Virus record (IMG/VR): IMGVR_UViG_3300010885_008144 | Span: 1 to 43,060 of that record | DNA length: 43,060 nt | DNA from: a virus | Strand: one strand, 5' to 3' | Shown: positions 21,302 to 25,896 of the stretch, one piece after another | Position numbering within the stretch: the first letter of the stretch is position 1 | How the letters are laid out: each line of letters begins with the position of its first letter | Notes under the pieces: generated by a model | What the model was told of the DNA's origin: nothing | What the model saw: only the letters and a program-made list of their open reading frames with translations | Databases searched by the model: none | Program-made: the position numbers and the translations under genes

Positions 21302-22336
21302 ATGGGACTTGACTTCAGATCGGACTTCCTCGCAGCACGGACGCAGTTCCTCCAAGGGTCGCAGGACAGCCCCGCACCATCGTTCCTCGACTCCGCCTAC
21401 GGGCGCATGCGGGACACGGGCTTCCTGTCCGCAAACCGATGGCTCGTCATGGTGTTCCCGAACCAAAAGGTCAGGGATGCCTTGGGGATGTCGTTCGTTC
21501 CCGATGTCGCCCGCCTCGCCACGACCTGCAAGTCCGTCTCCCTGAACGACAGGTCTTGGTACACCTCGGAGCAGAGCATCGGCGCAGGACCGAACCGCCT
21601 CTTCCCGTATCAGAAGAACAGTAGCAACAGTTCGGGCGTGAGGCTGTCGTTCAACATCGGAGCCGACATGTTCGAGAAGGAGTTCTTCGAGGCGTGGTAT
21701 CACCACATCCAAGACCCCCTCACGAAGCAATGGAAGTTCTACGACGACTATGCGCACGACAGCGAGATGTTGGTTCTCATGCTGCCGAACCATGTCCGCA
21801 ACTTCTCAATGGCGATTGAGGCTATGTACCAAGGCAAGGTCACGGGGATCAAGTTCACCGAGGTCTACCCGTACAGCATCAACATCAACGGCGGCAACCT
21901 CGGCTACGAGACGAACACTTCCCCGATGACCGTGGACATCTCCATGATGTACCTCGACATGGTGCCGCTCAAGGACATTCGGTTGCAGTACTCCAACTCC
22001 ATCCCCGCCATCACCGACACGGGATACCCCGTCATCGACAGCAGTTGGTCGAAGGGTGCCCTCGACGCAGCCCAAGCGTCGATGGACAAGGCGGTCAACG
22101 GATTCGTCACTAGGGGACGCTTGGCACGGAAGGCTTTCAACGAGGATCGCAGGAGGCAGATGACGATCCTCGAATCCTATGCGAAGCAGTTGGATCAGTA
22201 CAAGAACGACAACTTCCCGAGGGCGGTCGATGGCAAGGTGGTCTACCAAACTCCACGCCAAGGCGGACTCGACCTCGGTCTGACCCTCCTCTCGCAGACC
22301 CAAGGGTTCTTCGGAGCGGGTTTCTTCGGCGGCTAA
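21302..22336 (+). CDS. 54: Baseplate tail-tube initiator gp54-like
   Basis: At 344 aa it is similar to T4 gp54 (320 aa). It has a tail-tube-like beta fold: WLVMVFPNQKVRDALGMSF, a middle region RLSFNIGADMFEKEFFEAW, YHHIQDPLTKQWKFYDDYA, then GIKFTEVYPYSININGGNLG and PMTVDISMMYLDMV. This is the pattern of tube/initiator proteins that form the platform on which tube polymerisation begins, together with gp48. The C-terminal 90 residues are helical and charged. It lies 12 bases after the previous gene. Confidence 0.72.
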   Translation: MGLDFRSDFLAARTQFLQGSQDSPAPSFLDSAYGRMRDTGFLSANRWLVMVFPNQKVRDALGMSFVPDVARLATTCKSVSLNDRSWYTSEQSIGAGPNRLFPYQKNSSNSSGVRLSFNIGADMFEKEFFEAWYHHIQDPLTKQWKFYDDYAHDSEMLVLMLPNHVRNFSMAIEAMYQGKVTGIKFTEVYPYSININGGNLGYETNTSPMTVDISMMYLDMVPLKDIRLQYSNSIPAITDTGYPVIDSSWSKGALDAAQASMDKAVNGFVTRGRLARKAFNEDRRRQMTILESYAKQLDQYKNDNFPRAVDGKVVYQTPRQGGLDLGLTLLSQTQGFFGAGFFGG

Positions 22337-22354
22337 CCACATCAGGAGAACGAC

Positions 22355-23059
22355 ATGTCCCTCAGCGGAATCATCGCATCAGTACCAAAGCATCAGACCG
22401 TCCTGCCCCTCAGCGGGAAGAAGATCGAATACCGACCGTTCGTGGTCAAGGAGGAGAAGATTCTCCTCATGGCTGCGGAGACGAAGAACGAGGACACGAT
22501 CCACAGCGCAATCAGGGAGGTCGTCCTCGCATGCACGGGCGGGCGTGTGGATGTCACCAAGATTCCGCTCGTGGACATGGAGTACCTGTTCCTCCAACTG
22601 AGGAGCCACTCTGTCGGTGAAACCACGAAGCCTAGCGTCAAGTGCAGCAAGTGCGAAACCCCGAACGAATGCGAGATCAACCTCAAGGACATCGCCCCGC
22701 AGGTCAGTCCCGAACACAGGAAGGTCATCCCGATTGTGTCGGACATCAGCGTCATTATGAAGTACCCCACGATTGAGGACATCAAGTCGGTCGAGGGGGG
22801 CACGGATGTCGAGAAGACCTTCTCCCTCCTCGTCAAGTGCGTGGACAAGGTGGTGCAGGGAGAGACGACCTACAACGCCTCGGAGATGGACGAGGACGAG
22901 GTGCGTGACTTCGTCGAGCAGATGACGCAGGATCAGTTCAGGAGGCTGTTCGGCTTCCTTGAGACGATGCCGAAGATGGAGAGGCAGATCGCCTTCACCT
23001 GCAAGGCTTGCAAGGAGAAGAACGACCAAGTGCTGAAGGGGATCGCAAGTTTTTTCTGA
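22355..23059 (+). CDS. 26: Baseplate hub assembly protein gp26-like (tail assembly chaperone)
   Basis: The 234-aa protein matches the T4 gp26 'T4_baseplate' family pattern: KHQTVLPLSGKKIEYRPFVV, KEEKILLMAAETKN, IPLVDMEYLFLQLRSHSVGE. Two CxxC pairs (VKCSKCETPNE near residue 105 and FTCKACKEKND near 220) could bind one zinc ion. T4 gp26 (208 aa) helps assemble the central hub around the tape measure. A good SD (AGGAG) precedes the ATG. The last codons before the stop read AGT TTT TTC TGA and form a -1 slippery heptamer, so a fraction of ribosomes probably extend the protein by 63 residues. This resembles the G/GT chaperones of other tailed phages, including the position just before the tape measure. 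Confidence 0.8.
   Translation: MSLSGIIASVPKHQTVLPLSGKKIEYRPFVVKEEKILLMAAETKNEDTIHSAIREVVLACTGGRVDVTKIPLVDMEYLFLQLRSHSVGETTKPSVKCSKCETPNECEINLKDIAPQVSPEHRKVIPIVSDISVIMKYPTIEDIKSVEGGTDVEKTFSLLVKCVDKVVQGETTYNASEMDEDEVRDFVEQMTQDQFRRLFGFLETMPKMERQIAFTCKACKEKNDQVLKGIASFF
23036..23056 (+). promoter_or_regulatory. Programmed -1 frameshift signal: SD-like AAGGGG plus T TTT TTC
   Basis: T TTT TTC (23050-23056) is in the X XXY YYZ phase relative to the gp26 frame and is followed at once by the TGA stop. AAGGGG (23036-23041) lies eight bases upstream, the placement of the SD-like stimulator in E. coli dnaX -1 frameshifting. The -1 frame is open to 23247. No strong downstream hairpin is evident. Confidence 0.75.
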
Positions 23060-23247
23060 TCTCCTCCGCACACGACAACCTCCTCAACATGATGTCCGTG
23101 AACTTCGCCTTGATGCAGAACTTCTACTGGTCGTTGGCGGACATTGAGGGGATGATGCCGTGGGAGCGGAGGATCTACATAGACCTCCTCATGGAGCATC
23201 TGAAGCAGGAGAAGGAACGGATGGAGTCGCTGAAGGAACAGCGGTAA
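23056..23247 (+). CDS. Frameshift extension of gp26 (GT-like second domain; possible gp51 counterpart)
   Basis: After a -1 slip at 23050-23056 the frame continues for 63 codons to a TAA, giving a predicted 297-aa fusion with gp26. The extension reads LISSAHDNLLNMMSVNFALM, a region FYWSLADIEGMMPWERRIYI, then DLLMEHLKQEKERMESLKEQ. A compact helical 'E-x-M-x-x-W-E-R' motif in this position resembles the T part of G/GT tail chaperones. The tandem ATGs at 23090 have no SD, so independent translation looks unlikely. In T4 the gene after 26 is 51, another hub assembly factor, so this may be its functional equivalent; that is inference. Confidence 0.65.
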   Translation: MISSAHDNLLNMMSVNFALMQNFYWSLADIEGMMPWERRIYIDLLMEHLKQEKERMESLKEQR

Positions 23248-23262: not shown

Positions 23263-25896
23263 ATGTCGGGGGAATCGACCAACAATCCTGAAGGCATGGG
23301 ATCGAACCCAGGCAGACCGTCCCTCAACGACCAAGGGATCGGTCAGCCGAACTACGCACCGCCCCCGCCCGCAAGTGCCCTGCCCGATCCCGAGATGGAC
23401 AAGGCGAACAAGGCTCTCGACTCGTTCTTCGACCGCATCAAGGAACTTGAGAAGACCACCGATGCGCTGAACGAGAGCATCAAGAGGCAGCGTCAGTTGT
23501 CCGATGCGGCTGCGAAGTCGGCGGTCGTGCGCAAGGAAGCCGAGGTCAAGGCTGACAAGCAGCGTGAAGAGGTCGAGCGGAAGTACGCCAAGTACAAGGA
23601 TGCCGAGGGCAAGTGGTACGCAGGGTCGGAGCCTCTCCGCAAGCAGTACGAGGACTCCCTCAAGTCGATCAACTCGGAGATGGGGAAGGCTGCGGATGCC
23701 GACAAGGAGGCGCAGAAGGCTGTCCGTGCCAACACCAAGCAACTGAAGGAGGAGAGCAAGGCTAGGGAGAAGGCTCTCGCCACCATGCAGGAGGACATCG
23801 TCTCCGTGCGTGACATCAGTCCGAGTATGTCGAGGGACATGCAGACCTACCTCAAGAAGTCCTCGGACGCAGTCGCCAAACTCAACAAGAAGATCGACGA
23901 AACCCTGACCGAGAGCAAGGTGTCTGCCGAATCCCTCAAGAAGAGCGGCATCGCTGAACTGCTGGCGAGGGAGAACGCCAAGGTCGCCGCCGATGCCATC
24001 GCCCGTGCGGAGCGTGAGGTCGGGGTCGCCAAGTCGGTTGCCGAGCAACAGAGGGCAAGCGGCGTGTCCACCGCCGCCCTACAGATCGGTGCTGCGGGAG
24101 GAATCACAGGACTGACGGAGATCAAGGCTGAAGTCGATGCCATCACGGAAGCCGAGATGAAGCGTTACGCCGTGCTGAACCCCAAGGCGACCGAACAGGA
24201 AGCCGAGGCGTACAAGCGGAAGTACATCGAACAGAGCAAGACCTTGGTCGTGGATCGGTTGGTCGCCAAGCAAGAGAAGGAGATGCTCGAACTCAAGCGG
24301 AAGCAGATCGAAACGATCATCCGTGAGAGGGGCGTGTCCGTCGCCGCCGCCACCACCATCGCAGCCACGGGCGAGACGGGTCGTGAGGCGGCTCTCCTCC
24401 AAAGCCGCCACGAGCAGACCCTCGCCGCACTCGAAAAACTCGACAAGGATCAACTCATCCTCGTCGAGCAGATGAAGGCGGAGGATGCGAAGGCTGCGGA
24501 GCGTGAAGCCGAGGCGGTCAACGATGTCCCCGTTTGGGCGCAGAAGATCATCGACACCTACAACACGACCTCCTCCACACTCAAGGACATGTTCTCGGGC
24601 ATCTTCAGGAAGGAAGAGGGATGGTTCAAGACGATCATCCTCATCCTGAGCGTGACCATCGGTGCGGCTGTCGGCTACATCTACACCTACATTCAGAAGG
24701 TCTTCAACGCAGTCAAGTGGCTTTCGGGCGGCATTCCCGTGCTAGGACGGCTCGTATCCGATCTCGGGGCGGGTGTCGGCGGCTTGGTCGGGCGCATCGG
24801 TTCGGCGTTCCTGTCGGCGGAAAAGGGATTGATGGGACTCGTCAAGGGCATTCCCATCATCGGACAGTTCTTCTCCTTCTTCCCCCGTGTCCTGAGCGCA
24901 CTCCGTGTCGGCTTCAACTTCGTGGGCAAGTTCTTCTGGCCGCTGCAAATCCTCATCTCGACCATCGACGGCATCATCGGTGCGTTCAAGGGATTCAGGC
25001 AGTTGGGCATCAAGGGTGCCATCATCGGTGCGGTGTCGCAGATCGTCAGCGGACTCACCTTCGGTCTGCTCGACTTCCAAAGGGTGTTCGACTTCCTCAA
25101 CGATGCGTTCGGAGGCTTGGTCGATGTCTTCGTGAAGTTCGCCAAGCAGACCTATAACCTCATCATCAAGCCGTTCGTTGATGCCTTTCACAACATCGTG
25201 GAGATATTCCAAGGCGGCGGCAACCTCTTCTCGAAGGTGCTGAAGTCGGCGGTCGAGGTGTTCCTCGCCGTGGTCAAGTTCCTCGTCGGAAGGATCGTGC
25301 AGACCTTCGTTCAGATTCCCGTGCTTCTCCTGAATGCGGTGGGGTATGTCCTCAAGTTCGTCATCGTGGACATCCCGAAGATGCTCTACGATGCCGCCAC
25401 ATGGGTCTACGAGTGGATAACTAGCGGGGTATGGCTCGACGATCTCCTGTCGTTCGGGACATGGCTCAACGACAAGTTGGTCGGCTTCTTCACAGACATC
25501 ATCAACTCCATTGCGGATGCGTTGGGCGAGATTCCGATAGTCGGTTCGCACATCAAGGCTGCGCTCGGCGGAGGCACCCCTGTTGCCGCACCACAGGCAT
25601 CGACCCCCCGAATCGCCACAATCGCCACCACGCCCTCGGGAGGGGTGCAGGTAGCCGCCATGACCGCCCCGATGGCGTTCGGGGCACCCGCCCTCATGGG
25701 AGCCGCCACGACTGCCTCGACGGCACAGTACCTCGCCAACAACCGCAGCATGGGTTCGGTGGTGAATGCCCCGACCACAAACATCGTGGGTGGGGGTGGC
25801 GGGGGCGGTGACGGTGCAGTCCTCATGCCCCGCACAAGCCGCAACAACGATCCCACCTTCAGGGCGTTGCTGTTCCAAGAGGCTCCCGCCCTATAA
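23263..25896 (+). CDS. Tape measure protein (gp29 position)
   Basis: The 877-aa protein has a Pro-rich start (residues 1-45), a long charged coiled-coil region (about 45-430, for example RIKELEKTTDALNESIKRQR), and a hydrophobic C-terminal half. Membrane-like segments lie near 452-480 (KTIILILSVTIGAAVGYIYT), 565-605 (GAIIGAVSQIVSGLTFGLL) and 665-705 (VLLLNAVGYVLKFVIV). A glycine run precedes the C-terminus. Coiled coil plus late hydrophobic helices is the usual tape-measure layout, and the gene directly follows the gp26 chaperone/frameshift unit. T4 gp29 is 590 aa, so the tail may be longer than T4's if length scales as in other phages. The start at 23263 follows a GGGGAGAAAG SD. Confidence 0.75.
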   Translation: MSGESTNNPEGMGSNPGRPSLNDQGIGQPNYAPPPPASALPDPEMDKANKALDSFFDRIKELEKTTDALNESIKRQRQLSDAAAKSAVVRKEAEVKADKQREEVERKYAKYKDAEGKWYAGSEPLRKQYEDSLKSINSEMGKAADADKEAQKAVRANTKQLKEESKAREKALATMQEDIVSVRDISPSMSRDMQTYLKKSSDAVAKLNKKIDETLTESKVSAESLKKSGIAELLARENAKVAADAIARAEREVGVAKSVAEQQRASGVSTAALQIGAAGGITGLTEIKAEVDAITEAEMKRYAVLNPKATEQEAEAYKRKYIEQSKTLVVDRLVAKQEKEMLELKRKQIETIIRERGVSVAAATTIAATGETGREAALLQSRHEQTLAALEKLDKDQLILVEQMKAEDAKAAEREAEAVNDVPVWAQKIIDTYNTTSSTLKDMFSGIFRKEEGWFKTIILILSVTIGAAVGYIYTYIQKVFNAVKWLSGGIPVLGRLVSDLGAGVGGLVGRIGSAFLSAEKGLMGLVKGIPIIGQFFSFFPRVLSALRVGFNFVGKFFWPLQILISTIDGIIGAFKGFRQLGIKGAIIGAVSQIVSGLTFGLLDFQRVFDFLNDAFGGLVDVFVKFAKQTYNLIIKPFVDAFHNIVEIFQGGGNLFSKVLKSAVEVFLAVVKFLVGRIVQTFVQIPVLLLNAVGYVLKFVIVDIPKMLYDAATWVYEWITSGVWLDDLLSFGTWLNDKLVGFFTDIINSIADALGEIPIVGSHIKAALGGGTPVAAPQASTPRIATIATTPSGGVQVAAMTAPMAFGAPALMGAATTASTAQYLANNRSMGSVVNAPTTNIVGGGGGGGDGAVLMPRTSRNNDPTFRALLFQEAPAL

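Follow-up and report, generated by a model that had tools for sequence, protein, structure and literature searches.

The window, by which we denote the whole stretch of 43,060 nucleotides analysed here (positions 1 to 43,060 of IMG/VR virus record IMGVR_UViG_3300010885_008144), carries a gene of the gp26 family of T4-type phages between a tail gene and a long open reading frame (ORF). The 3' end of gp26 reads GCA AGT TTT TTC TGA, in phase with the ORF 22355-23059, whose coding part therefore closes with the codons TTT and TTC. The following features were located:

21302-22336, plus strand: upstream tail gene, tail tube or tube-initiator like (phrog_3629, tail tube protein, E 5.6e-8)
22344-22348, plus strand: Shine-Dalgarno site of gp26, AGGAG, 6 nt before the ATG at 22355
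22355-23059, plus strand: gp26, short form, an in-phase ORF of 234 amino acids
23036-23041, plus strand: AAGGGG, Shine-Dalgarno-like possible stimulator, 8 nt before the heptamer
23050-23056, plus strand: putative slippery heptamer T TTT TTC, in phase, with zero-frame codons TTT TTC
23057-23059, plus strand: zero-frame stop TGA, directly adjoining the heptamer
23056-23247, plus strand: -1 frame extension, gp51-like C-terminal domain, 63 amino acids plus stop
23263-25896, plus strand: 877-aa ORF, tape measure protein by position only

The heptamer lying in phase before the stop, the AAGGGG eight nucleotides 5' of it and the 63-residue -1 frame, on which a preliminary description had built its proposal of a programmed -1 frameshift, were all confirmed in the sequence. 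The first codon of the extension begins at 23056 and its stop occupies 23245-23247; the long fusion product would comprise 297 amino acids, and the extension contains the motif EGMMPWERRIY. The AGGAG 5' of gp26 is found also in the five close relatives compared. The assignment of the window to a T4-type phage, likewise proposed earlier, was borne out by neighbouring genes matching T4-type DNA end protector, head closure, tube-cap and wedge families. The 877-aa ORF begins 16 nt past the stop of the extension; its PHROG matches are weak (tape measure, E 0.16) and comparison with T4 gp29, performed with 29 sequences (the ORF of the window, the downstream ORFs longer than 400 aa of other lineages and two cyanophages), gave no alignment (probability 0.4%, E 0.16), so that its identity as tape measure protein rests on position. 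The upstream tail gene (21302-22336) also contains an in-phase heptamer, G GGT TTC (22318-22324), separated from the stop codon by 9 nt; this heptamer occurs in loci L004 and L005, is absent from L002, L006 and L007, and was set aside as probably due to chance.

The gp26 product matches PF12322 (T4_baseplate, E 3.6e-59) and phrog_150 (E 8.5e-58), and a profile search of PDB sequences gave no match to any chain. Its AlphaFold2 model, obtained from a 32-sequence alignment, has a pLDDT of 89.2. Using VIA-align, the highest-ranking structure was the HK97 tail assembly chaperone 2ob9 (Z 7.4, rmsd 3.6 over 85 residues, residues 1-87 of the model), followed by YqbN 3klu (Z 6.8, rmsd 3.9, 87 residues), both with Z below 8, which VIA-align grades as middling; the third match reached only 4.7 and covered another region of the model. 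Foldseek against the PDB ranked 2ob9 at E 0.59, with no structure at E 0.001 or below, and we therefore regard the structural match of gp26 to HK97 as moderate. The named best matches in a viral structure library were mostly gp26-like baseplate hub proteins. The modelled N-terminal domain of gp26 thus bears a moderate resemblance to the tail assembly chaperone (TAC) fold. The protein (22355-23059) also has two Cys-x-x-Cys pairs, KCSKC and TCKAC, a putative metal-binding site; across the 32 aligned sequences, C97 alone of these cysteines is unchanged.

We confirmed relatives of the locus in IMG/VR by tblastn and analysed the best 80 of 185, which with the window make 81 loci in 32 lineages at 80% identity; the relatives reach down to 32% identity and the search patterns that retrieved them do not span the shift site. 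Alignment of the gp26-gp51 regions, suggested earlier as a check for a conserved slippery site, showed T TTT TTY in phase, followed by the corresponding -1 extension, in 81 of the 81 loci (56 TTTTTTT and 25 TTTTTTC). The zero-frame stop lies 0 or 3 nt past the heptamer in 77 loci and 24-42 nt past it in the other four, which also carry the heptamer; the extension is complete in 78 loci, and three contigs end within it. By itself, the T6Y motif is not rare in the window, where two copies were found against 3.17 expected from shuffling. The site nonetheless exceeds chance, since the in-phase heptamer adjoins the stop, 80 of the 80 relatives keep it and TTT is scarce (32 of 569 Phe codons in the selected long ORFs of the window): position, phase and conservation are what count, rather than the rarity of the motif. 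Codon choice at the site is constrained. The codon preceding the TTT of the heptamer is NNT in all 32 lineages (20.0 expected from their own codon usage) and the first Phe codon is TTT in all 32 (20.1 expected), with a joint log10 P of -17.4 over the 32 lineages, which are only partly independent.

Furthermore, 26 named phage records were inspected at the gp26 locus: nine Ackermannviridae-type, three T4-type and 14 outside these two types. The last set includes Kyanoviridae, other cyanophages, a Pelagibacter phage, Pootjesviridae, Delftia PhiW-14, Desulfovibrio 7757, Aeromonas AS-zj, 65 and PX29, Vibrio EniLVp02 and Stenotrophomonas Mendera, and its 14 members without exception carry T TTT TTN in phase together with a -1 extension. 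All nine Ackermannviridae-type loci (end of gp26 in L088, L093, L094, L095, L096, L097, L101, L103 and L105, where L101 is counted here and its record names no family) keep a gp51-like -1 extension, with the site [NNT][TTY][NNN][stop] in place of T TTT TTY. The three T4-type records (two Tevenvirinae and SonariX, family not given) have neither heptamer nor extension.

The extension itself is conserved in all 31 complete aligned lineages, and its conservation begins with the first residues after Phe-Phe (x-I-x-L-S-H), 5' of any Met. The extension lies within the 79-aa ORF 23008-23247. This ORF matches the gp51 family phrog_634, 'baseplate hub assembly catalyst' (E 4.9e-20), and also positions 225-281 of phrog_150 (E 1.3e-6); this C-terminal match suggests that some phrog_150 members already hold the fused form. 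When the five closest sequences are compared, the -1 frame has 0.22, 0.04 and 0.38 differences per codon at positions 1, 2 and 3, and dN is 0.08-0.17 against a dS of 0.5-1.4 in six of the ten pairs, the other four pairs, all involving L007, giving no dS value. With dN well below dS, the -1 extension is under purifying selection.

A conserved reading frame of this kind could also belong to an independent small gene (gp51) on which ribosomes re-initiate by coupling to termination at the gp26 stop. The named phage records inspected would agree with this: those that annotate the extension stretch show a separate short gene, never a join, and the others annotate nothing. Moreover, an ATG overlaps the stop in the -1 frame in five of the nine Ackermannviridae-type loci and in five of the 14 heptamer-bearing phages (TGATG in L087, L089, L098, L102 and L104); restart could therefore contribute in those five phages, not in the window, and a free C domain could also arise at their TGATG. 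At the corresponding position the window reads ATC in place of ATG, and a start overlaps the gp26 stop in just one of the 81 loci (L056). The sole -1 start codon 5' of the heptamer in the window is the TTG at 23008, which lacks a Shine-Dalgarno match of at least 4, in line with the earlier remark that the -1 part has no good start. In 77 of the 81 loci the -1 frame has no ATG, GTG or TTG between its last stop and the heptamer, the window being among the exceptions, and in 26 of the 78 complete loci start codons of any kind are absent both upstream and within the first 60 nt from the heptamer. Within the same limits, none of the 81 loci has a start with a Shine-Dalgarno match of at least 4, so the relatives are without the start and Shine-Dalgarno site of its own that had been named beforehand as speaking against frameshifting. 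As conservation moreover begins 5' of any Met, and as re-initiation would leave the codon bias of the heptamer unexplained, we consider a separate gp51 gene very improbable.

Programmed -1 frameshifting in gp26, yielding a short and a long tail assembly chaperone, is by these data very probably the right reading. It is strongly supported by the conservation of the site, the codon constraint, the absence of a start and the fold of the N-terminal domain, and on these grounds the G/GT-style arrangement put forward in the preliminary description is supported as well. In the course of events that we infer, including the slippage, its efficiency, the Shine-Dalgarno effect and the chaperone role, most ribosomes would terminate at the TGA at 23057 and release the short chaperone (TAC-N, lambda gpG-like), while a minority would slip by -1 with tRNA-Phe on both UUU and UUC of U UUU UUC, probably assisted by the upstream Shine-Dalgarno-like AAGGGG. 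The slipped ribosomes would translate 63 further codons to give the long form of 297 residues (TAC-NC, gpGT-like) with its gp51-like domain. Judging from lambda gpG/gpGT, the role of the short form would be to coat the tape measure protein, and that of the additional domain in the long form to recruit tube or hub subunits.

Support for AAGGGG as a stimulator is modest. Over the 32 lineages, the 21 nt upstream of the heptamer pair with the anti-Shine-Dalgarno sequence at a mean of -6.6 kcal/mol; the corresponding values are -4.6 kcal/mol for synonymous recodings and -2.2 kcal/mol for other stretches of the same genes. In the window itself, 14 of 100 synonymous recodings match the strength of this pairing; several lineages have little or no such pairing, and in many single loci it is weak relative to synonymous recoding. 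The suggested dnaX-like element is accordingly a possible stimulator, present 8 nt upstream in the window and stronger in mean pairing than synonymous recodings, though not so in every lineage. Upstream elements of this type, like downstream stem-loops or pseudoknots, are common at -1 frameshift sites without being obligatory. In pseudoknot-free folding, downstream RNA structure was not significant in the window (z +0.97) and a consensus downstream fold was absent among 31 sequences; folding z fell below -2 in three of 12 loci folded singly, none of them from the group of the window.

The same run of T might instead produce the -1 product during transcription, through slippage of RNA polymerase, and a run of at least six T is present in every locus and of seven or longer in 56 of the 81. 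The run is nevertheless short, six in the window, and slippage by bacterial polymerase usually requires about nine or more; the X XXY YYZ phase and the proximity of the stop correspond to the needs of ribosomal slippage, and Shine-Dalgarno-like pairing is enriched upstream, which together make a transcriptional origin extremely unlikely. Any single disruption of a frame might also be a sequencing error or a recent frameshift mutation that truncated gp26; that all 81 loci and the named isolates have their frame disrupted at this one codon refutes the explanation for practical purposes.

T4 itself would reach a similar pair of proteins by another arrangement. The short form and T4 gp51 both align with T4 gp26 (E 3.4e-21 and E 6.8e-11, respectively), and T4 gp51 aligns to the fused profile over 229 columns, nearly all of gp51 (E 8e-15). 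When the two parts were used alone, the N part aligned to T4 gp51 residues 13-185 (E 7.9e-10) and the C part to residues 208-245 (E 6.2e-6). Since residues 13-185 align with gp26 and only the end with the extension, T4 gp51 would be a complete long form, and T4 gp26 and gp51 look, by alignment, like the short and long forms encoded by two complete genes. The suggestion that gp26 and gp51 are the G and T halves of a split chaperone accordingly needs correction for T4, whose gp51 aligns with the whole fusion and not with the T half only. T4 gp26 shares Phe-Phe at the equivalent place with the window; its codons there are TTC TTT, however, with no heptamer and no -1 extension, and the T4 long form is a separate complete gene, unlike the frameshifted fusion of the window.

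Lambda gpG/gpGT and HK97 gp13 resemble the window in having a short protein and a -1 extension just upstream of a long ORF, and HK97 gp13 (2ob9) also in the fold of the N domain. The N protein of the window is larger than that of these chaperones, and its slippery site is T TTT TTC, unlike the G GGA AAG of lambda. Among T4-like phages, Vladimirov and colleagues reportedly found frameshifting to be conserved in several groups, with T4 using genes 26 and 51, and in the system they described the gp51-like domain is said to be the extension, as in the window. The gp26 family is the short form both in their TAC-N/TAC-NC system and here, with no essential difference, and the window represents another, metagenomic, phage beside theirs. 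As cited in passages of PMC10885494 and PMC12846349, the TAC genes of T4-like phages were identified by Vladimirov, Gautam and Davidson (2022, Virology 566:9-15), so the idea has a published precedent in T4-like phages, to whose frameshifting chaperones the window very probably adds one more. Citing Vladimirov 2022, PMC12846349 attributes poly-T slippery signals to the TAC-N genes of T4-like phages, and PMC10885494 describes a short gene with a separate fused long gene in some of these phages. Vandenendeviridae and Andersonviridae, as described in PMC12846349, are similar to the window in a -1 shift at a T-run near the end of TAC-N, with the small downstream piece annotated as its own gene, as in T4-like phages; they differ in their GTTTTT motif and in being different families.

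According to Sullivan 2010 (PMC3037559), cyanophage gp51 has about 20% of the length of T4 gp51 and lacks the first approximately 200 residues, and the relevant passages note this short gp51 without a frameshift explanation. Cyanophage gp51 is short because the annotated gp51 is only the -1 extension of gp26. In PMC3004832, T4 gp26 and gp51 appear as hub assembly chaperones. The gp51 of PMC11948020 is an unrelated one. In the public T4-like records examined, the annotated gene pair should be a single frameshifted gene, and the long form in metagenomic phages becomes easy to annotate.

Least clearly accounted for are the Ackermannviridae sites. At [NNT][TTY], only tRNA-Phe on UUY could re-pair well, and we therefore propose, tentatively and as a possibility that we hold to be somewhat doubtful, that Ackermannviridae-type phages use single-tRNA -1 slippage or a mixture of slippage and stop-start in place of the canonical double slip. 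If true, and counted with the two complete genes of T4, gp26/gp51 would show three ways to one short/long chaperone pair. Within the Straboviridae, the Aeromonas phages outside Tevenvirinae, AS-zj, PX29 and phage 65 (L086, L107 and L108), have the heptamer layout; the AS-zj record has no annotated gene from 3260 to 5288 of L086, and the phage 65 record has only an 81-nt ORF over the extension.
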